DNA from: Zoogloea sp. | GTDB taxonomy: Bacteria > Pseudomonadota > Gammaproteobacteria > Burkholderiales > Rhodocyclaceae | DNA: 39,090 bases | Direction of reading: 5' to 3' | Assembly: GCF_017302315.1 (NCBI RefSeq) | Contig: NZ_JAFLDT010000037.1 | Location: 1 to 39,090 of the forward strand | Part shown: in pieces, positions 1,770 through 26,300 of the stretch | Numbering within the stretch: position 1 is the first letter of the stretch | Layout: every line of letters starts with the position of its first letter | The notes under the pieces: model-generated | What the model saw: the letters and a program-made list of their open reading frames with translations, nothing else | What the model was told of the DNA's origin: nothing | Databases searched by the model: none | Made by a program: the position numbers and the translations under genes

Positions 1770-3164
1770 TCAAACGTGATAGGCGGATTCGCCGTGGGCG
1801 CTCAGGTCCAGCCCCTCGCGCTCGTCCTCCTCGCTGACACGCAGGCCGATGGTCACGTCGATCAGCTTGAAGGCGATCCAGGACACCACCCCGGACCACA
1901 CCACCGCGGTGCCCGCCCCCCAGGACTGGGCCACCAGCTGGGCGCCCATGTCGTAGGCAGCCGGCGCATTGGCCACGTAGTCCCACACACCGGTCCCCCC
2001 CAGCTCCGGGGAGGCGAAGACACCGGTGAGCAGCGCACCCAGGATGCCGCCCACGCCATGCACGCCAAACACGTCCAGGCTGTCATCCACGCCCAGCATG
2101 CGCTTGAGGCCATTGACGCCCCAGTAGCACACGATGCCGCCAAGGAAGCCCATGATGATGGCGCCCATGGGGCCGACCAGGCCGCAGGCCGGGGTGATCA
2201 CCACCAGGCCGGCAATGGCACCGGACACGGCACCCAGCATGGAGGGCTTGCCCTTGAAGAGGGCCTCGATCACCGTCCAGGCCACCGTGGCCGCGCAAGC
2301 TGCCACCAGGGTGTTGAAGAAGGCCAGGCCGGCGGTGGCACCGGCTTCCAGTGCCGAGCCCACGTTGAAGCCGAACCAGCCCACGAAGAGCAGCGAGGCG
2401 CCAACCAGGGTCATGGTCAGGCTGTGGGGGGCCATGGATTCACGACGGTAGCCGATGCGCGGCCCCACCATGTAGGCACCCACCAGCGCGGCCACGCCGG
2501 CATTGATGTGCACCACCGTGCCACCGGCAAAGTCCAGCGCCCCCTTGTTGAACAGGAAGCCGGCAAACTCGCCCGCCTTCGCAGCAGCCTCGGCCGAGGT
2601 GAAGGCATCCGGGCCGGCCCAGTACCAGACCATGTGGGCCATGGGGATGTAGGAGAAGGTGAACCACAGCACCATGAAGATCAGCACCGCCGAGAACTTG
2701 ATGCGCTCGGCGAAGCCCCCGATGATCAGCGCCGGCGTGATGGCTGCGAAGGTCAGCTCGAAGGAGGCAAACAGGTATTCGGGCAGCACCACACCCTTGC
2801 TGAAGGTGGCCACCACAGTCTCCGGTGTCACCCCCTTCATGAACAGCTTGTCGAAGCCGCCGATGAAGGCATTGCCATCGGTGAAGGCCAGGCTGTAGCC
2901 ATACACGGCCCACAGCACGCCGAGCAGGCAGAAGATCACCAGGGTCTGCATCAGCACGGAGAGCATGTTCTTGGCGCGGACCATGCCGCCGTAGAACAGA
3001 CCCAGGCCCGGGGTGGCCATCATCACCACCAGCAGGGTGGCGGTGATCAGCCAGGCGGTGTCGCCCTTGTTGGGCACCGGCGCGGGTGGCGCGCCATCGG
3101 CCCAGCCCGGGGTGGAGAAGAGGGCGGCAAGGAGTACGGGGGCGAAAGCGAGAAGACGGTTCAT
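1770..3164 (-). CDS. amtB: Ammonium transporter AmtB
   Basis: AmtB conducts ammonium across the inner membrane as a trimer and is gated by the PII protein encoded just upstream. The 464-residue product starts with a cleavable signal peptide (MNRLLAFAPVLLAALFSTPG, then WADG), followed by about eleven membrane segments. Conserved pore features are visible: DFAGGTVVHINAG (the Asp and first pore His) and DVFGVHGVGG (the second pore His). The open frame runs upstream to 3305, but that part overlaps glnK. ATG 3164 is preceded by GAGGAG at a good distance and begins the signal peptide. The gene lies 10 bases downstream of glnK, the usual glnK-amtB operon, and should be induced under nitrogen limitation from the sigma-54 promoter at 3626-3643. 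Confidence 0.97.
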   Translation of the reverse strand: MNRLLAFAPVLLAALFSTPGWADGAPPAPVPNKGDTAWLITATLLVVMMATPGLGLFYGGMVRAKNMLSVLMQTLVIFCLLGVLWAVYGYSLAFTDGNAFIGGFDKLFMKGVTPETVVATFSKGVVLPEYLFASFELTFAAITPALIIGGFAERIKFSAVLIFMVLWFTFSYIPMAHMVWYWAGPDAFTSAEAAAKAGEFAGFLFNKGALDFAGGTVVHINAGVAALVGAYMVGPRIGYRRESMAPHSLTMTLVGASLLFVGWFGFNVGSALEAGATAGLAFFNTLVAACAATVAWTVIEALFKGKPSMLGAVSGAIAGLVVITPACGLVGPMGAIIMGFLGGIVCYWGVNGLKRMLGVDDSLDVFGVHGVGGILGALLTGVFASPELGGTGVWDYVANAPAAYDMGAQLVAQSWGAGTAVVWSGVVSWIAFKLIDVTIGLRVSEEDEREGLDLSAHGESAYHV

Positions 3165-3174
3165 TGGAATCTCC

Positions 3175-3513
3175 TCAGATGGCGGCCGCGCCGGACTCAC
3201 CGGTGCGGATGCGGACAGCGCGGGCCAGGTCGAAGACGAAGATCTTTCCGTCGCCGATCTTGCCGGTGGCTGCGGCCTGTTCAATGGCGGCAATGGCGGA
3301 ATCAAGCACGTCGTCGTGGACGGCAGCCTCGACTTTCACCTTGGGCAGGAAATCCACCACGTACTCGGCACCCCGGTAGAGCTCGGTGTGCCCCTTCTGA
3401 CGGCCGAAGCCCTTCACGTCGGTCACGGTCAGCCCCTGCACGCCGACGGCGTTGAGGGCCATGCGGACCTCGTCGAGCTTGAAGGGCTTGATGATTGCGC
3501 TAATCCACTTCAT
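3175..3513 (-). CDS. glnK: PII nitrogen regulatory protein GlnK
   Basis: GlnK is the PII signal protein that binds ATP/ADP and 2-oxoglutarate, is uridylylated under nitrogen limitation and blocks AmtB when ammonium is plentiful. The 112-residue product has the family length. The T-loop reads GFGRQKGHTELYRGAEYVVD, with the uridylylation site at Tyr51. The C-terminal signature TGKIGDGKIFV and the final RIRTGESGAAAI are intact. A longer frame to 3537 exists, but ATG 3513, preceded by GGAGGG, gives the canonical N-terminus MKWISAIIKPF. Trp3 in place of the commoner Leu is a small variation. First gene of the glnK-amtB operon. Confidence 0.97.
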   Translation of the reverse strand: MKWISAIIKPFKLDEVRMALNAVGVQGLTVTDVKGFGRQKGHTELYRGAEYVVDFLPKVKVEAAVHDDVLDSAIAAIEQAAATGKIGDGKIFVFDLARAVRIRTGESGAAAI

Positions 3514-3625
3514 GGCACCCTCCGCGGCGGATGACATGTACGGCCGGGACGGCCGGACTGCTTTGCTGGATCTTCATGGGACATCGCTCCTTTTTGCACT
3601 CAATGAAAAAAAGTTTCTTCTTGAG

Positions 3626-3643
3626 AAGCAGAAGCTGTGCCAA
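3626..3643 (-). promoter_or_regulatory. Sigma-54 promoter of glnK-amtB
   Basis: On the minus strand the sequence reads TTGGCACAGCTTCTGCTT. It has the invariant GG and GC dinucleotides exactly ten bases apart and a perfect TGGCAC -24 element. Its position, about 110 bases before the glnK start, fits an NtrC-activated glnK promoter. Two TGCAC half-sites farther upstream (3695-3699 and 3726-3731) could be parts of NtrC sites, but neither is a full palindrome. Confidence 0.8.
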
Positions 3644-3854
3644 GCGCCAACGACACGAAAAATCAAGGATTTAGCGCCAGAGGACAGAGTTTCATGCACA
3701 GAAACATGGCGTCCCGTGGCGGCCCTGCACCAAGAATGAACCTACCTACCCCGCCGGCCTCGGATACCGCCTTGTAATACAAGGACATTTGCTGCCCGGG
3801 GCAGCCATGGCCCGCCCCCCGGGCCGACCAAGAATGAAATTTTTCAATCGAAGC

Positions 3855-3890
3855 CTTCCAAAATCGCGGGTTTCAGGTATAGTGCCGCCC
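3855..3890 (+). promoter_or_regulatory. Sigma-70 promoter of the tRNA operon
   Basis: A TATAGT -10 box (3878-3883) lies 16-17 bases after CTTCCA/TTCCAA (3855-3861). It is followed directly by a GC-rich stretch (GCCGCCC), the kind of discriminator seen at stable-RNA promoters under stringent control. It sits 50-60 bases before tRNA-Gly. The rest of the gap between glnK and the tRNAs (3644-3854) shows only a short palindrome, CTTGTAATACAAG, at about 3771-3783. Confidence 0.6.
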
Positions 3891-3938
3891 TTCGGACAAG
3901 GCGCACGCAGCACGCGTCGGCAATACGTACAGTCCATT

Positions 3939-4014
3939 GCGGCAGTAGCTCAGTTGGTAGAGCGCAACCTTGCCAAGGTTGAGGTCGAGAGTTCGAGACT
4001 CTTCTGCCGCTCCA
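3939..4014 (+). tRNA. tRNA-Gly(GCC)
   Basis: A 76-base tRNA with encoded CCA. The acceptor arms GCGGCAG and CTGCCGC pair perfectly. The D-arm is AGCTCAGTTGGTAGAGC, the anticodon GCC lies at 3972-3974 in a CTTGCCAAG loop, and the T-arm contains GTTCGAGA. It is the first of two tRNAs sharing a promoter and terminator. Confidence 0.97.
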
Positions 4015-4062
4015 GTTTTCGGTCCTCCGGGCAGCAGTCCGGTCAGGACACAGCGGGACACC

Positions 4063-4137
4063 GCTCATGTAGCTCAGTGGCAGAGCACTCCCTTGGTAAG
4101 GGAGAGGTCGGCAGTTCAATCCTGCCCATGAGCACCA
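4063..4137 (+). tRNA. tRNA-Thr(GGT)
   Basis: A 75-base tRNA with encoded CCA. The acceptor arms GCTCATG and CATGAGC pair, followed by discriminator A and CCA. The anticodon stem CTCCC/GGGAG closes the loop TTGGTAA, giving anticodon GGT. The T-loop is GTTCAATC. In many proteobacteria tRNA-Thr(GGT) precedes tuf; here a terminator follows and no tuf gene is present. Confidence 0.96.
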
Positions 4138-4322: not shown

Positions 4323-4454
4323 AAGTCGCTCCTACACGTCGCCCCAACCAGCCGCCGCTTCGGAAAAAGCCGCATCGACCATCAGACGCTGCGGAGGTCG
4401 AGTGAATTCGCCCCCACAAAGGCAGCGGCCGGCTGCATTCCCATGCCTGAATGC

Positions 4455-4511
4455 ACAAGGGGCGACCGAAGCCGCCCCTTGTTCCGGGAACAAGGGGGCC
4501 AGGCCCCCTGC
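4455..4511. repeat. Cluster of GC-rich hairpins beyond the kinase-fusion stop
   Basis: Three adjacent palindromes lie here: ACAAGGGGCG/CGCCCCTTGT (4455-4482), CTTGTTC/GAACAAG around 4478-4494, and AGGGGGCC/GGCCCCCT (about 4493-4510). They end three bases from the stop of the minus-strand fusion gene, so the last hairpin may act as its terminator, though no T-run follows. The first resembles a degenerate REP unit. The rest of 4346-4454 shows no feature. Confidence 0.5.
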
Positions 4512-4513
4512 CC

Positions 4514-6865
4514 TCAGAGCCGGCTCTGGATCTCCTCGATGAAACCCTGCATGCCGGTGCGGATGTTGCCTGCGTTGCCTTCGTCGGTATCAATGTGCAT
4601 GGCCAGGCGGTATGCCGGGTTCACCCGCACCACCACGTCACCGAAGATGAGTTCGCGCTCACCTTCGATCCGCACGCGGACGATGTACTTGTCGCGCACG
4701 CGGAAACGCAGGGCGTCTTCGGGGGTCATGTGGATGTGGCGCTGGGCACAGATGACGCCCCGCTCGATGGTGGTGCTGCCGGCCGGGCCTTCGAGGGTGA
4801 TGCCCGGGGTGTTCACCAGGTCGCCGGATTCGCGGATGGGGGGCTGGATGCCGACCTTGAACTGCTCGGTCATGGCGATCTCCACCTGGGTCTCCTTGCG
4901 GGTCGGGCCGAGGACGCGCACGTTGGCGATGCGCCCCTTGGGGCCGACCAGGTGTACCTTCTCGGCGCAGGCGAACTGGCCGGGCTGGGACAGTTCGTGC
5001 TCGGGGGTCAGCTGGTGGCCGGGGCCGAAGAGCTTGTCCACATCGGCCTGGCACAGATGCACGTGGTGGGCGGAGATCTCGATGGGGATGGCGGGCGCGT
5101 CTTCGGCACGGGCTTCGAGGAGGAGCTGATTGCGTTCGATGGCGCGCAGGGTTTCCCAGGCCACCAGACGCTCATCGTCGTTGGTGATGACGATGATGGT
5201 GACCGGTGAATCGTCGGCGGAGATGATGGCGTGGGAGCCCACCAGACCGAGGTTGCGGTTCTTCTCCTCATCCAGCTTGATACCCATGTAGCCAAGGCCC
5301 TGGCAGGCCAGGCTGCGCACGGTGGCGCTGGTCTCGCCCACGTCGCCGGTGAAGGCCAGCACGTCGATGCCGCCCATGGCCGCCACGTAAGCGCCGATGT
5401 TCTTGCGCACCTGGTAGCAGAAGGCCTTGTGGGCCAGCAGGGCACGATGGTGGCCATTGCTGGCGGCGGTCTCGATGTCGTGGATGTTGCTGGAGATGCC
5501 GGAGATGCCCTTCAGGCCGCTGCCGGTGTTGATCAGGCTGGAGAGTTCCTCCGGCGACATGCCCTGGTGCTGCATCAGGTGGATCATCACCGCCGGGTCG
5601 ATGCTGCCGGAACGGCTGGGCATGATCAGGCCATCGGTGGGCGTCATGCCCATGGTGGTATCCACCGAGCGACCGTGGTCGATGGCGCACAGGGAGGCGC
5701 CGATGCCCAGGTGACAGGACACCACCTCGAGTTCGCCGAGGGGGCGCTGGACGACTTCGGCGGCCTTCAGGGAAACGTAGCGGTGGGACGTGCCATGGAA
5801 GCCGTAACGGCGGATGCCTTCCTGCTTGTAGAGGTCGTAGGGCAGGCCGTAGAGGTAGGCGTAAGGCGGCAGGGTCTGGTGGAAGGCGGTGTCGAAGACC
5901 GCCACATGGGGCACGCCGGGCAACTGCTTCATGGCCATGCGGATGCCCTCCACATTGACCGGGTTGTGCAGGGGCGCAAACACGGAGAGGGCTTCAATCT
6001 CGGCGATCACCTGCGGGGTGATGACCACCGCGCTGGAGAACTTGCTGCCCCCATGGACCACCCGGTGCCCGACGGCAGTGACGTCCTCGGGATGGAAGGT
6101 GAAGGCGTCGCCGAGCAGGTGGGTGGCCTCCTGCATGACCCGGAACAGCTCGGAGATGGGGAAAGGCTCGCGCATCTGCGTCTTGACCTGGGAGCCCACC
6201 ATCACGGTGATGCACACCACGGCCGGATCGGCGTTGTCAACGATGCCATGGACGTCGGAACCCATGTCCTTGGTGTCGTAGATGCCGAAGTGGATCTGGC
6301 TGACGCCCACATTGAGGGCGACCACCTTGCCCGGCTGGCCGGTGACCAGGGACAGGGCGTAGGGGTCGTCGGACTTGGCTGCGCTGGGGGTCTGCCCGGC
6401 AACGATGTCCAGACTCATGTTGCGCATGCGATCGAGCAGCAGGCGTGAAAGGTAGGCAATGGCCTTGGGATTGGTCAGGATGTGGGCGTTGAAGACCGCA
6501 TGGGGGATCAGCAACACGTAGCAGCGGTTGCCGGCGATCACGTCGGCGGACAGGCGCTCGCCGGTCAGGATGGACATCACCCCAAAGACGTCACCCGGCC
6601 CCAGTTGGCTCAGCACCGAACGGGTGCCGGTGTTGTCGGTGACGGAGATCTCCGCATGACCGGTGATCAGCACACCGAGGTACTTGCTGTCGTCGCCGGT
6701 CTCGAGGATGGCCTCGTTGCCTTCATAGCTGGCCAGTTGGCCCTGGCTGACGATGTCGTCCACCTTGTCGGCCGGGAAGTGCTCGAAAAGGCGTACCTGT
6801 TCGAGGAAAAACTGCTTCAGGTCAATTTCGCTCACGCTGATTCTCGCTTCATTGGGTGGTGCCAT
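4514..6865 (-). CDS. Three-domain fusion: cNMP-binding-like domain, acetate/propionate kinase, PduL-type phosphotransacylase
   Basis: A 783-residue soluble protein that would carry the whole acyl-CoA / acyl-phosphate / acid + ATP route on one chain. Residues about 25-150 match a CRP-type cyclic-nucleotide-binding barrel without a DNA-binding domain; its phosphate cassette reads FGVMSILTGERLSA, so the usual cAMP-contacting Glu is Val. Residues about 180-575 are an acetate kinase: Arg268 (GHRVVHGG), His300 (APLHNP), Asp325 (VFDTAFH), His357 (GFHGTSH), Arg418 (SRSGSIDP) and Glu511 (TGDVGET) match the catalytic set. However, the first motif is LNVGVSQIHF instead of LNxGSSSxKF, and HLGIGAS replaces HLGNGAS. 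Residues about 592-775 are a PduL phosphate acyltransferase with metal-binding HHVHL and RHIHM and a GPTRKETQVE stretch. ATG 6865 is chosen although its ribosome site is weak; GTG at about 6835 is possible. It stands alone as a transcription unit. Confidence 0.9.
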   Translation of the reverse strand: MAPPNEARISVSEIDLKQFFLEQVRLFEHFPADKVDDIVSQGQLASYEGNEAILETGDDSKYLGVLITGHAEISVTDNTGTRSVLSQLGPGDVFGVMSILTGERLSADVIAGNRCYVLLIPHAVFNAHILTNPKAIAYLSRLLLDRMRNMSLDIVAGQTPSAAKSDDPYALSLVTGQPGKVVALNVGVSQIHFGIYDTKDMGSDVHGIVDNADPAVVCITVMVGSQVKTQMREPFPISELFRVMQEATHLLGDAFTFHPEDVTAVGHRVVHGGSKFSSAVVITPQVIAEIEALSVFAPLHNPVNVEGIRMAMKQLPGVPHVAVFDTAFHQTLPPYAYLYGLPYDLYKQEGIRRYGFHGTSHRYVSLKAAEVVQRPLGELEVVSCHLGIGASLCAIDHGRSVDTTMGMTPTDGLIMPSRSGSIDPAVMIHLMQHQGMSPEELSSLINTGSGLKGISGISSNIHDIETAASNGHHRALLAHKAFCYQVRKNIGAYVAAMGGIDVLAFTGDVGETSATVRSLACQGLGYMGIKLDEEKNRNLGLVGSHAIISADDSPVTIIVITNDDERLVAWETLRAIERNQLLLEARAEDAPAIPIEISAHHVHLCQADVDKLFGPGHQLTPEHELSQPGQFACAEKVHLVGPKGRIANVRVLGPTRKETQVEIAMTEQFKVGIQPPIRESGDLVNTPGITLEGPAGSTTIERGVICAQRHIHMTPEDALRFRVRDKYIVRVRIEGERELIFGDVVVRVNPAYRLAMHIDTDEGNAGNIRTGMQGFIEEIQSRL

Positions 6866-7038
6866 AACCGACAGGATAGTCCCGCTGCTGCGATGCAGCA
6901 AAGCACATTTGCCGCATCGCCATCTGCGATCGCCGTTTGGCGGCCAAGGCACAAGGGGCAGCATGCGGCGCCGCAACAGGCTAAACCTCTCCTGTGACGG
7001 TCATTCGCGGGAAATCTGAAGGTTTGCTGCTGAAGAGT

Positions 7039-7227
7039 TCAGTTCGGGCCGTCGTCACGGCCCATGAAGCTTCGGCTCACCTTGCGGAGGACATAGATGT
7101 TTTGCCGGAAGGCCCGGCAACCACGACAGAAGAGGAGGTGCAGGCGCAGCGCCAGGTACTCACGCTTGCCCAGGGGTCGGTCAAGGGCTTCGGAGAGGAG
7201 CCGCGTGGTGTGCTTGCAGGTCAGCAT
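7039..7227 (-). CDS. Small zinc-finger (zf-HC2) anti-sigma factor
   Basis: A 62-residue protein whose start overlaps the end of the ECF sigma gene by seven bases, so it is probably translationally coupled. It begins MLTCKHTTRLLSEALDRPLG and contains LHLLFCRGCR, the H-x3-C-x2-C pattern of zinc-binding anti-sigma domains. No membrane segment is present, so it should be cytosolic, like redox- or metal-responsive ZAS anti-sigmas. From its position I infer that it holds the upstream sigma factor inactive until Zn is lost or the Cys residues react. A longer frame upstream only overlaps the sigma gene. Confidence 0.8.
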   Translation of the reverse strand: MLTCKHTTRLLSEALDRPLGKREYLALRLHLLFCRGCRAFRQNIYVLRKVSRSFMGRDDGPN

Positions 7228-7808
7228 CGGGCCGCCTCCGCGCCGAACCAGCCCTCCGAGAGACACTGACGCAGACCGGCCCGCGCCCGATGGAGGATCA
7301 CGTTGCAGTTTCCGGTGCTCAGGTCCAGGGTGGTGCAGATCTCGTCGGTCTCGAGACCAAGGAACTCGCGCATCATGAATACCCGGGCGGTGCGGGCCGG
7401 CAGCACTTCCAGGCAGATCTCGAAGACTTGCCAGAACTGCTGCTGTTCGAGGGCTTCCTCGGGGTTGCCCCACGGCCGCGGACGGCTCACCGGGCTCCAG
7501 TGTTCGTTCTCCCGGAACAGGGCGTCGAAGGCTTCGTCCATGTCGGCCTCGTCCCGCTCCAGGCTGGAGACCTGTACCGTGCGCCCCCGCTCGCGCAGGA
7601 AGTCGATGACCTTGTGGCGCACGATGGTGAACAGCCAGGTCTTCAGGGCCGAACGGCCGGCAAAACGCTCGATGCCCTTGAGGGCGGCCTCTATGGCCTC
7701 CTGCACGGCATCCTCGGCGGCCGCATCATCCTGAAGCTGCAGTCGGGCAAACTTGAGCAGCTGGGGACGGAAGCCGGAGATGAGTTCGGTGTAGGAAATG
7801 GCAGTCAT
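7221..7808 (-). CDS. ECF-type RNA polymerase sigma factor
   Basis: A 195-residue group 4 sigma factor. Region 2 is seen in DDAAAEDAVQEAIEAALKGI and in ALKTWLFTIVRHKVIDFLRE. Region 4 runs from LPARTARVFMMREFLGLETD through the helix-turn-helix to NVILHRARAGLRQCL. The N-terminus MTAISYTELISGFRPQLLKF fits ATG 7808. A longer start at ATG 7886 overlaps the upstream gene as ATGA, but would translate through a terminator-like hairpin, so I prefer 7808. It sits between the DUF2063 gene and the anti-sigma gene. It probably drives the whole bufferin operon from the ECF-like promoter at 9899-9923. Confidence 0.9.
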   Translation of the reverse strand: MTAISYTELISGFRPQLLKFARLQLQDDAAAEDAVQEAIEAALKGIERFAGRSALKTWLFTIVRHKVIDFLRERGRTVQVSSLERDEADMDEAFDALFRENEHWSPVSRPRPWGNPEEALEQQQFWQVFEICLEVLPARTARVFMMREFLGLETDEICTTLDLSTGNCNVILHRARAGLRQCLSEGWFGAEAARC

Positions 7809-7843
7809 GGCATGCGGATGAATGCGGTTGGGAACAGACAGCA

Positions 7844-7865
7844 GGGGCGGCAGCGCCCCTTTTTT
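7844..7865 (+). terminator. Hairpin with T-run inside the sigma-factor leader
   Basis: GGGGCG-GCAG-CGCCCC followed by six Ts on the plus strand, between the stop of the DUF2063 gene (7883) and the sigma start (7808). The surrounding genes run on the minus strand, where the hairpin has no T-run. It may block antisense transcription or weakly reduce sigma expression relative to the upstream genes. Confidence 0.55.
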
Positions 7866-7882
7866 CAGCATAGCAGGGAAGC

Positions 7883-8617
7883 TCATGCTGTCGTCCCCAG
7901 CAGTACGCCAAGCCGACGCAAATCGGCCAGACTGTGCCGGCCGAAATCCATGAAGGCGGCGTCCGGCGCACGCCCCAGTTCTGCGGCAAGGCGTGCCAGG
8001 GCGTCACCCCCGGATACCCGGCCGTCGGCCAGCAGGGCCAGCAGACGCGCAGTGGCGGTGCTGGTCTCGACAAAGCACACCTCATCGGCGGCATCGCGGA
8101 ACACCAGCAGGTGCACCGCTGCCGGGCGCCGCGGACGAAAGGCCGGCCCGATGCGGTGGACCGGCCACTGGAAGGCCAGGGACAGGAGGGCCGGATTGAC
8201 GACGGGACACCCGGCCAGGAGATCGCCGTCGGCCAGATCGGCGGGCGGCACGGTGTCCATCACGTCCACGGCCAGCTCGGCCCATTCGTAGCGGGCCAGC
8301 TCGACAAACCAGCGCGGCAGGCGCTGGCCGGTACCGGCCTCCAGGTAAGTGACGAACTCCCGCGGGATCTCGCGGAACCAGGAGGTCGCGCAGGGCCAGT
8401 CCCGGTAGAAGGCCCGGCACAGGCGGGTCCACCGGACCTCACCGAGGCAGTCCCGGCCCACCGGGAAGCAGCGGTCGAGGAAGCTGCGCAGGTTGTTGAA
8501 GAGCAGTTCCTCGTACACCGCCATGCGCTGGCGCGGCACACCGGCCGGCACGGGAGCCCTTGCACCGGCCCGGATGCGCCGGCCGAAGGCCAACTGAAAC
8601 TCGCGCAGGCGGCTCAT
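7883..8617 (-). CDS. bufC: DUF2063 protein, BufC-like partner of the DUF692 enzyme
   Basis: A 244-residue protein with the DUF2063 N-terminal signature: MSRLREFQLAFGRRIR, then RMAVYEELLFNNLRSFLDRC (the usual YRNN-like segment), followed by WFREIPREFVTY. Members of this family accompany DUF692 (MNIO) enzymes and help present the precursor peptide for modification. Its start codon overlaps the stop of the DUF692 gene (ATGA at 8614-8617), so the two are translationally coupled. The open frame extends to 8758, but that part lies inside the neighbour. Assignment as BufC rests on the cluster: secreted Cys-rich precursor, MNIO enzyme, DUF2063, sigma factor. Confidence 0.88.
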   Translation of the reverse strand: MSRLREFQLAFGRRIRAGARAPVPAGVPRQRMAVYEELLFNNLRSFLDRCFPVGRDCLGEVRWTRLCRAFYRDWPCATSWFREIPREFVTYLEAGTGQRLPRWFVELARYEWAELAVDVMDTVPPADLADGDLLAGCPVVNPALLSLAFQWPVHRIGPAFRPRRPAAVHLLVFRDAADEVCFVETSTATARLLALLADGRVSGGDALARLAAELGRAPDAAFMDFGRHSLADLRRLGVLLGTTA

Positions 8618-9444
8618 CGGGCGGCTCCGGCCACCTGCAGGCGGGCGATGCGGGCCACCTCCTCCGCCAGTTCGGCGAGGGGCGGAAAGCCGAAGTCCCG
8701 CTCCAGGCAGGTAGGCACCGGGCCGGTGTGGCGGTAGGCCTCGGCCAGCAGATCCCACACCGGGTCGATGACCGGGGCGCCATGGGTGTCGATGAGCAGG
8801 CCGTCATCCTCCACATGGTGGCCGGCCACATGGATGTAGCAGGTGCGTGCCAGCGGTAGCGCACGGAGGAAATCGAAGGGGTCGAAGCCGAAGTTGCGGG
8901 CATTGACCAGGATGTTGTTCACGTCCAGGTGGAGCAGGCAATCAGCCTCGTCGACAACAGCGCGGATGAAGCTGGCCTCGTCCATCTCGGCGCCGGGGGG
9001 CGTGACGTAGCGCGAGGCGTTCTCGATGCCGATGCGGCAGCCGAGTACGTCCTGGGCCTGGCGGATGCGGGCCGCAGCCCAGCGCACCGCCTCGCCGGTG
9101 CAGGGCAAGGGCAGCAGGTCGTAGAGCTGGCCGGCGTCGTTACTCCAGGACAAATGTTCGGTATACAGGCCGATGCCGTGCGTCGCCATGAAGTCGCGGG
9201 TGCGCAGGAGCAGGTCGGTATCGAGGGGCCGCTGGCCGCCCACCGACAGGGACAGGCCGTGGCACACGAAGGGGTAGCGTTCGGTGAAGGCGCGCAACTG
9301 GCGGGCCGAACGGCCGCCCATGCCGGCCCAGTTCTCCGGGGCCAACTCGAAGAACTGCACGGCGTCCGGAACACCGGCTTCCAACTCGGGCAACAGCTCG
9401 CGGCGGAACCCAAGCCCTGCCCCGACGGGCATGCGTGCGTGCAT
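8614..9444 (-). CDS. bufB: DUF692 / MNIO-family enzyme, BufB-like
   Basis: A 276-residue TIM-barrel iron enzyme of the multinuclear non-heme iron oxidase family, which modifies Cys residues of ribosomal peptides. Visible family motifs are ELAPENW, HGLSLSVGG, EHLSW, GIENASRY, LLHLDVNNILVNARNFGFDP, YIHVAGHH, DTHGAPVIDPVWDL and CLERDFGFP, supplying the His, Asp, Asn and Glu metal ligands. ATG 9444 has AGGAG eight bases before it and is chosen over ATG 9432. It follows the precursor gene by 54 bases, with a hairpin between. The likely substrate is the six-Cys peptide encoded at 9499-9822, whose Cys residues may become thiooxazoles as in characterised bufferins. Confidence 0.92.
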   Translation of the reverse strand: MHARMPVGAGLGFRRELLPELEAGVPDAVQFFELAPENWAGMGGRSARQLRAFTERYPFVCHGLSLSVGGQRPLDTDLLLRTRDFMATHGIGLYTEHLSWSNDAGQLYDLLPLPCTGEAVRWAAARIRQAQDVLGCRIGIENASRYVTPPGAEMDEASFIRAVVDEADCLLHLDVNNILVNARNFGFDPFDFLRALPLARTCYIHVAGHHVEDDGLLIDTHGAPVIDPVWDLLAEAYRHTGPVPTCLERDFGFPPLAELAEEVARIARLQVAGAAR

Positions 9445-9458
9445 GTCAGACGCTCCTG

Positions 9459-9487
9459 GCACGGGGCGGGGCCACCCAACCCCGTGC
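9459..9487 (-). terminator. Attenuator-like hairpin between precursor and enzyme genes
   Basis: A perfect eight-base stem, GCACGGGG / CCCCGTGC, lies in the 54-base gap after the precursor stop and before the DUF692 start. There is no T-run, so it should be a partial stop or mRNA-stabilising hairpin. Such elements let the precursor be made in excess over the modifying enzymes. Confidence 0.5.
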
Positions 9488-9498
9488 GGCACGGACTC

Positions 9499-25691: not shown

Positions 25692-26300
25692 CTACTTCCC
25701 CGCCAACAGCTTGCGCAGATCCCCGGCGACCACTTCGGGCTTCTCACCGTGTTTCACGTAAAGGCGCAAGCGCCCCTGCGGATCGAAGACATACGTGCCA
25801 GTGGAATGATCAATCGTGTAGGCGGTGCCCTTGGTATCTCCCTGCTTCTGGTAGAAGACCTTGAAGTCCCTGGCCACGGCGGCCGTCGTCTCGACATCAC
25901 CGTATAGACCGGTGAAGCGCTTGTCGAAGGCCGGGACATACTCGGCAAGAAGCGCCTGGGTGTCACGCTCCGGATCCACCGTGATGAACAGCACCTGCAC
26001 CTTTTCGGCATCCGGCCCCAACTGGCGCATCACTTCAGCCATGCCAAGCAAGTTGGTCGGGCACACGTCCGGACACTGGGTGTAGCCGAAGAACAGGGTG
26101 ACCACCTTCCCCCGGTAGTCAGCCAGGCTGCGCGGCGCCCCGGTGTGATCCGTAAGCTGGAAGCCCTTTGCATAATTGGCGCCCGTGATGTCGGTACTGG
26201 CAAAGCCGTTTGCCGCACCGCCCTCCCCGGTGGGAGAACAGGCCGCCAGCACAGCCAGCATAACGACAGCCAGCATGCTGCGACGCAACAACGCAATCAT
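25692..26300 (-). CDS. SCO1/SenC-type copper chaperone lipoprotein
   Basis: A 202-residue periplasmic lipoprotein that helps insert copper into the CuA site of cytochrome oxidase. A lipoprotein signal ends in LAVLAACSPTG, with the lipid-bearing Cys at about residue 21. The thioredoxin-like domain holds the copper-binding CPDVC in GYTQCPDVCPTNLLG and the His ligand in TIDHSTGTYVF. AAGGAG precedes ATG 26300. It is divergent from the oxidase operon, sharing a 130-base promoter region. Confidence 0.95.
   Translation of the reverse strand: MIALLRRSMLAVVMLAVLAACSPTGEGGAANGFASTDITGANYAKGFQLTDHTGAPRSLADYRGKVVTLFFGYTQCPDVCPTNLLGMAEVMRQLGPDAEKVQVLFITVDPERDTQALLAEYVPAFDKRFTGLYGDVETTAAVARDFKVFYQKQGDTKGTAYTIDHSTGTYVFDPQGRLRLYVKHGEKPEVVAGDLRKLLAGK

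Follow-up and report, generated by a model that had tools for sequence, protein, structure and literature searches.

The stretch of DNA analyzed here (hereafter the window) is the 39,090-nucleotide (nt) contig NZ_JAFLDT010000037.1 of a Zoogloea sp. genome of 4.5 Mb (assembly GCF_017302315.1). On its minus strand lies a gene whose predicted product carries a CRP-like barrel, an acetate kinase (Ack) fold and a PduL-type phosphotransacylase in one chain (Table 1). A preliminary description had claimed that a single uninterrupted frame encodes all three domains, and this is borne out: the listing of open reading frames contains one frame, 4514..6976, without a stop codon, and the limits given earlier are correct for the ATG start. 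In two homologous loci (L084 and L088), a stop codon stands four codons ahead of the methionine of MSEIDLKRFF with no intervening alternative start, and translation in the window therefore probably begins at the matching GTG.

Pfam profiles match all three domains, and the NCBIfam assignments agree. The cNMP_binding match (E = 4.5e-16) lies above its cut-off; Acetate_kinase (PF00871) is matched over profile positions 1-391 of 392 (E = 3.4e-127), so that the full length ascribed to the kinase earlier is confirmed for the fold; and PTAC (PF06130) is matched over positions 1-174 of 176 (E = 9e-77; 257.3 bits versus a cut-off of 25). Two PTAC domains had been expected; the domain is present, but the Pfam version used returns one match only. 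An AlphaFold2 model of the chain, the structure prediction proposed at the outset, was built from 43 aligned rows and has a mean predicted local distance difference test score (pLDDT) of 83.8 and a predicted template-modeling score of 0.66. It places a long helix at residues 133-154, after the barrel, and falls below a pLDDT of 50 at residues 1-10 and at residues 151-165, between barrel and kinase. Foldseek searches with this model recover all three domain types: acetate kinases (7fj7, 1g99), PduL (5cuo) and, at weaker scores, CRP-type proteins. Strong hairpins are predicted around and just past the stop codon of the gene (window positions 4440-4520; RNA fold z = -2.98).

Table 1. Coordinates of the three-domain gene, its domains and motifs, and the candidate operator in the window (residue numbers count from the ATG)
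Feature	Window coordinates	Strand	Residues	Remarks
Three-domain coding sequence	4514..6865	minus		ATG 6865 gives 783 amino acids (aa); GTG 6835 (likelier) gives 773 aa
CRP-like (cNMP_binding) barrel	6479..6730	minus	46-129	Pfam, AlphaFold2 model, Foldseek matches to CRP
Phosphate-binding-cassette position, GDVFGVMSILTGERLSADVIA	6533..6595	minus	91-111	Canonical Glu is Val and Arg is Leu; an Arg one place earlier
Acetate kinase fold	5159..6328	minus	180-569	Pfam, NCBIfam, alignment, Foldseek
PHOSPHATE1 loop, NVGVSQIH	6290..6313	minus	185-192	S10, S12, K14 replaced by V, Q, H
ADENOSINE motif, DVGET	5330..5344	minus	508-512	Asp in place of G331, Thr in place of N335
PduL-type phosphotransacylase (PTAC)	4565..5086	minus	594-767	Zinc ligands and phosphate Arg retained
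First metal motif, SAHHVHL	5054..5074	minus		RHxH changed to HHxH; marker of the three-domain clade
PhaR-type palindromic operator, TTGCTGCATCGCAGCAG	6885..6901	minus		Ends 49 nt before GTG 6835; candidate from sequence

Conservation of the architecture beyond one genome had been named as support for a real system, and such conservation is found. A first search placed the fusion in 23 of 60 genomes, the window's own included, of which 22 encode it in full with no stop codon; in the remaining one (G005) it is split over two contigs. Among the fetched loci, all three domains occur in 79 rows representing 61 distinct sequences, mostly from Rhodocyclales and a few from other phyla. We take the label Rhodocyclales to cover Zoogloeaceae, Azonexaceae, Rhodocyclaceae and Sterolibacteriaceae; rows from genomes, including metagenome-assembled ones, that lack a family name were assigned to it by tree position or kinship code. 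The nearest named relatives of the fusion are Zoogloea, and the PduL part of one locus (L080) is identical at 100%.

Sampling by rank, with the window's genome included each time, at the level of the order 5 of 300 genomes have PduL, all 5 within the window's family; in the class sample it was detected in 12 of 369 genomes, the others there being kinase-PduL fusions without a barrel, stand-alone proteins or genes cut by a contig end. Within the family, 60 of 249 genomes have PduL; by a hand tally from the search table, frames of 777-951 aa account for 49 of these, frames of 191-327 aa for 10 and a fragment within a 47-aa frame for one. Barrel, kinase and PduL are all present in each of the 31 loci from the order and family searches (L037-L067, L041 being the window). 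Three-domain members also occur in records titled Planctomycetota, Candidatus Anammoximicrobium, Verrucomicrobium, Akkermansiaceae, Deltaproteobacteria, Candidatus Brocadiia, Anaerolineae, Elusimicrobia and Candidatus Magnetominusculus. Judged by length, three-domain frames were found in only 1 of 145 Verrucomicrobiota genomes (the search center itself) and 4 of 149 Planctomycetota genomes (search center included). Given this rarity outside Rhodocyclales, the distribution of the fusion is scattered, and Rhodocyclales is where it is commonest among the groups sampled. Tandem copies are seen in Rhodocyclus purpureus (L093:1639-6612) and in G454 (L042), and Candidatus Magnetominusculus holds a second copy (G926:C21, L170). 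Two Ack-PduL frames bear long N-terminal extensions (L135:2533-6621, 1363 aa; L112:3377-5698, 774 aa); the first 756 residues of the former have no Pfam match at E <= 1e-8.

Fusions of Ack with PduL were noted in 2016, and substrate channeling was proposed for them (Erbilgin et al., PMC4784909). The window protein resembles these in joining PduL to an acetate kinase and in having no encapsulation peptide, but the available portion of that article names neither a CRP-like domain nor an HHxH motif nor an altered kinase site, and the word "cyclic" occurs there 0 times. Prior characterization of the architecture had been raised in the preliminary description against its own proposal; the Ack-PduL pair had been noted in print, and the barrel-bearing form was not found by aimed searches of openly licensed PubMed Central (PMC) papers, which did not extend to the altered residues or the PhaR link described below. 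The same literature yielded no paper on PduL in Accumulibacter. Passage of acyl phosphate between the two active sites, as suggested earlier, is plausible.

Residues of the kinase domain are numbered after the Methanosarcina thermophila enzyme (MtAck; 1G99, 1TUY), which the window domain matches at 40% identity with a Foldseek TMt of 0.91, and conservation was counted over 71 Rhodocyclales rows (53 distinct, some rows being the same gene fetched twice). The residues that handle the acyl group and the traveling phosphoryl group (R91, H123, D148, H180 and R241) are shared with MtAck and, together with F179, G212 and P232, are retained in 71/71 rows, as is H208 in 70/71. On the nucleotide side, by contrast, the window protein has lost all nine of the residues S10, S12, K14, N211, G239, R285, G331, N335 and E384 that mark MtAck. 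Across Rhodocyclales the replacements are themselves conserved: S12 is Gln in every row, K14 is His in 66 (Arg in 5), S10 is Ile, Leu or Val in 66, N211 is Ile or Val in 68, G239 is Pro in 58, R285 is His in 63, N335 is Thr in 62, G331 is Asp in 62 of the 70 rows with a letter there and E384 is Asp in 67 of 69. The same sites are nearly all canonical in 28 two-domain and 13 stand-alone rows. In the three-domain rows of other phyla, PHOSPHATE1 is mostly intact, G331 is present wherever there is a letter and N335 is mostly Gly.

All ATP-dependent Acks have G331, and changes at N211, G239 or G331 lower the activity of MtAck, according to the available portions of PMC4390882 and PMC5517563. In a count made over columns with no preselection of sites, 52 other Ack rows share 89 conserved columns; Rhodocyclales have replacements at 11 of them, 6 of which fall among 12 nucleotide-site columns (p = 5e-4, a descriptive value, since the underlying list of 15 sites was compiled from those two papers and from recall after the pattern had first been seen). 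The Rhodocyclales kinase has thus kept its acyl- and phosphoryl-transfer residues while those of its nucleotide site have been exchanged for new conserved ones (S12Q, K14H, N211I, G331D, E384D), a pattern suggesting that this half most likely does not use ATP or ADP in the ordinary way. In Verrucomicrobiota and Planctomycetota, acetate kinase-like proteins encoded next to a stand-alone PduL (L178-L181, L183-L185, L191-L195) have Lys at the place of R91 and Glu at that of D148.

Quick trees place the Rhodocyclales members in one group, with support of 100 for Ack and 96 for PduL, and all three-domain proteins in a larger group enclosing it (84 and 99), in which members from Planctomycetota and Verrucomicrobiota adjoin Rhodocyclales (95 and 90). 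The stem branch of the Rhodocyclales group is longer for the kinase (0.74 changes per column) than for PduL (0.18). Within the group, the ratios of nonsynonymous to synonymous substitution rates, obtained by a simple counting method for 10 pairs, are low (kinase, 0.06-0.23; PduL, 0.01-0.16; barrel, 0.05-0.23). The long kinase stem and these low ratios therefore indicate that the domain went through a single episode of rapid change and was conserved under purifying selection thereafter.

The PduL domain retains its metal- and phosphate-binding residues. It shares 46% identity with Rhodopseudomonas palustris PduL (5CUO; root-mean-square deviation 1.2-1.3), and the zinc ligands of that structure (His48, His50, Glu109, His157, His159, His204), as listed in PMC4784909, and its phosphate-binding Arg103 all have counterparts. 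Apart from being fused, the window domain differs from 5CUO in its first metal motif, which reads HHxH in place of RHxH. This form occurs in 78/78 three-domain rows (55 distinct) and in 0/25 two-domain and 0/38 stand-alone PduL rows; it is present as well in three partial frames held apart from the two-domain rows (L097, L105, L106), in three later Planctomycetota members and in the second Magnetominusculus copy. Because the zinc ligands given in PMC4784909 do not include the altered Arg, the sequence still warrants the label PduL-type.

Upstream of the gene lies a candidate operator for the polyhydroxybutyrate (PHB) regulator PhaR. It matches all 14 specified positions of YTKNTGCRNYGCANMAR, the palindrome deduced for Ralstonia eutropha PhaR in the part of PMC12849132 available, and so resembles the operators at R. 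eutropha phasin genes; unlike those, it is predicted from sequence and precedes a gene for an acyl-phosphate enzyme. Taking one region per distinct sequence gave 31 Rhodocyclales regions from 35 (36 sources were tried, of which L086 yielded none). The best match within 160 nt upstream has 0 mismatches in 25 of these, 1 in 5 and 2 in 1 (L023), and the 30 sites with no more than one mismatch start 64-89 nt before the gene, 28 of them at 64-75. Exact matches were obtained in 0/3100 composition shuffles and in 19/5890 other 160-nt windows of the same loci. In three-domain genes of other phyla, for which the 260 nt before the first aligned residue were taken with the start codon unchecked, the palindrome is present at <=1 mismatch in 0/9, the best matches having 3-4 mismatches.

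A motif derived from the fusion sites was applied to whole genomes at <=1 mismatch, giving 19 sites in the window's genome, 33 in Dechloromonas denitrificans and 13 in R. purpureus, and 1, 3 and 2, respectively, for a reversed control (a site can be counted on both strands). Genes were annotated beside only some of these sites. In D. denitrificans the motif stands ahead of a phasin gene (L207) and a MaoC-PTA gene (L204), and in R. purpureus ahead of a phasin gene (L199); genes near other sites encode LysR regulators (L200, L201, L209), an SDR protein (L206) and, at L224, a succinate dehydrogenase membrane subunit with DUF188. Sinorhizobium meliloti PhaR has been reported to bind the sdhC promoter (PMC12542648), and neither "acetate kinase" nor "phosphotransacetylase" occurs in the available text of that article. 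A gene for the PhaR N-terminal domain (PF07879) is present in 3/3 genomes searched, including that of the window (G000). With the palindrome upstream and PhaR encoded in the same genome, the fusion gene is a candidate PhaR target. Upstream of fusion genes, FNR and CRP boxes gave no consistent match, and a sigma-70 promoter scan of window positions 6780-7060 found nothing. A second PhaR-like palindrome (26275-26291, one mismatch) lies close to the beginning of a minus-strand SCO1/SenC gene (25692-26300).

The fusion is not the only acetate enzyme of its host. The window's genome holds an ordinary AckA (36% identity, contig C122) with an adjoining Pta match, and a separate ordinary AckA is listed in 21 of the 23 fusion genomes, all but G005 and G015; the fusion therefore adds to acetate metabolism and is not the sole route. 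In one group of Azonexus/Dechloromonas-type loci its neighbors include sulfite/PAPS (3'-phosphoadenosine 5'-phosphosulfate) reductase genes; elsewhere they are unrelated, and no shell protein is among those annotated, a microcompartment link not having been otherwise pursued. In the window, genes for a zf-HC2 protein, an ECF sigma factor, a DUF2063/NGO1945-type protein and an MbnB/TglH/ChrH protein lie upstream, apparently as an operon (7039-9492), and on the other side stand ammonium transporter and P-II genes followed by tRNA-Gly and tRNA-Thr (1770-4137). In Verrucomicrobium sp. BvORR106 (L095:1031-9944), the three-domain gene follows a gene for a DcuA/DcuB transporter and another fusion, of cNMP_binding with a fumarase/aspartase-type lyase (618 aa, L095:2379-4235), and precedes a gene for a fumarate-reductase-type flavoprotein; the two BvORR106 barrels are only distantly alike. 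No paper on a cyclic nucleotide-binding domain fused to aspartate ammonia-lyase was found among openly licensed PMC papers.

Rhodocyclales store PHB. The loss of the ATP-binding residues and the PHB-type control site together make it probable that the Rhodocyclales fusion is no ordinary ATP-making enzyme, and our favored reading, to which we give a probability of about 0.45, is that in Rhodocyclales it belongs to the PhaR regulon and acts on acyl-coenzyme A (acyl-CoA) and acyl phosphate without ATP or ADP. More tentatively, it might provide a PHB-controlled, ATP-free exit from acetyl- or propionyl-CoA. PhaR bound to the operator before the start would repress the gene; as PHB granules form, PhaR would be titrated away and the protein made, as for phasins. 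The two-zinc site of PduL would then interconvert acetyl- or propionyl-CoA plus phosphate with acyl phosphate plus CoA, and the acyl phosphate would pass to the adjoining kinase fold, in which the acyl group and traveling phosphoryl group could still be held next to a rebuilt nucleotide site. That domain would discharge it to water or phosphate with no use of ADP. The net effect would be to free CoA and release short acids when acyl-CoA accumulates around PHB turnover, alongside the pta-ackA pair, with the barrel perhaps serving as a pairing or allosteric module lacking the usual cyclic-nucleotide binding. The architecture, residue states and operator sequence are observed; the reactions, their direction, PhaR binding and the role of the barrel are proposed from them.

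Several observations weigh against this interpretation. In the kinase, N7 is conserved in 66/71 Rhodocyclales rows (Asp in 5), R285 remains Arg in 4 and E334 is still Glu in the rows with a letter there, so that some binding of a phosphoryl donor may persist. Because the Rhodocyclales rows form one tree group, the residue changes count as one burst and not as a set of independent cases. Several other motif sites lie near genes with no obvious PHB link, encoding a K+ transporter (L216), an ABC permease (L198), OsmC (L218), DUF188 (L224) and an HU-type DNA-binding protein (L222). In the window's genome, the two other exact motif sites have a LysR and an SDR gene nearby, no phasin lies near the sites examined, and the 9-kb pta-ackA region (L197) has no site at <=1 mismatch. 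The R. eutropha consensus is based on few sites, as the authors of PMC12849132 say of an older one in the portion available. Lastly, clustering of open reading frames from 28 sources (the window and L080-L106) revealed no neighbor gene conserved across lineages.

Among the alternatives, one that we consider unlikely is that the kinase fold is an acyl-phosphate sensor, a pseudokinase with acyl phosphate or acetate as its ligand that would modulate PduL or a partner without phosphoryl transfer. The PTA-like domain of the malic enzyme MaeB, thought to be regulatory, offers an analogy, and such a role is favored by the many exchanges on the nucleotide side and the purifying selection on the domain; retention of D148, H123, H180, R91 and R241 in every Rhodocyclales row, however, goes beyond the needs of a pure binder.

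A small probability also attaches to an ordinary ATP-dependent Ack-PduL pair, fused for channeling, in which the replaced residues are tolerated. This would account for the intact fold and acyl side, is likely for the nearly canonical two-domain fusions and is possible for three-domain members from other phyla. In Rhodocyclales, however, G331, S12, K14, N211 and E384 are replaced and largely fixed in their new state, and nearly all the fusion genomes already list an ordinary AckA.

We regard as rather improbable a pyrophosphate (PPi)- or phosphate-dependent kinase that would convert acetyl phosphate and phosphate to acetate and PPi, or the reverse, as does the Entamoeba histolytica enzyme (4H0O). 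N211, G239, G331 and N335 are altered in that enzyme too, and the window protein has a residue other than Gly at G331, namely the Asp of putative bacterial PPi-dependent Acks; but identity to the Entamoeba protein is 28%, the residues at the altered sites differ and PHOSPHATE1 is altered as well. The extra PHOSPHATE2 Gly that is the hallmark of the putative PPi-dependent Acks in PMC5517563 is also lacking (the window reads HLGIG), and the available portion of that paper raises a PPi-dependent form among bacterial Ack homologs merely as a possibility. The case is further weakened by the want of any association with H+-pyrophosphatase, which is found in 30/49 fusion genomes and 128/200 genomes without the fusion (p = 0.74), and at E <= 1e-50 in 0/9 Zoogloea-genus genomes of the sample.

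Gating of catalysis by cyclic AMP or a similar ligand on the barrel, as in mycobacterial Pat, is very unlikely. The preliminary description had spoken of a CRP-like sensor and of direct ligand control, and the Pfam match to cNMP_binding does lie above its cut-off. The canonical phosphate-binding cassette, however, has a Glu and an Arg, both of which are missing from the window barrel; the Arg is absent from 51/51 three-domain rows (44 distinct) and the Glu from 38/41 Rhodocyclales rows, so that neither the sensor wording nor cyclic-nucleotide control finds support. A CRP-like control from the same genome (L003, GELALLDDAPRSASV) retains both residues. An Arg one place early in 33/41 Rhodocyclales rows could possibly contact a ligand, and the Glu is kept in 9/10 rows from other phyla. 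Finally, an assembly or sequencing error joining separate genes, the other objection raised at the outset, is next to inconceivable and was rejected, as 61 distinct three-domain sequences come from many genomes and nothing was found in its favor.

What appears to be new here is the altered kinase site of the Rhodocyclales proteins after a long stem branch, together with the PhaR palindrome in 30 of 31 upstream regions, neither of which was searched for in the literature. The residue pattern provides a natural experiment on the basis of ATP dependence in acetate kinases, a matter left unsettled by mutagenesis (PMC5517563, in the portion available). If the proposed reading is correct, automatic annotation as "acetate kinase" would miscount the fusion as ATP-yielding. 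Sewage treatment commonly involves Zoogloea, Dechloromonas and Azonexus, and a PHB-controlled, ATP-free enzyme of acyl-CoA and acyl phosphate would represent an extra branch of carbon-storage metabolism in these bacteria.

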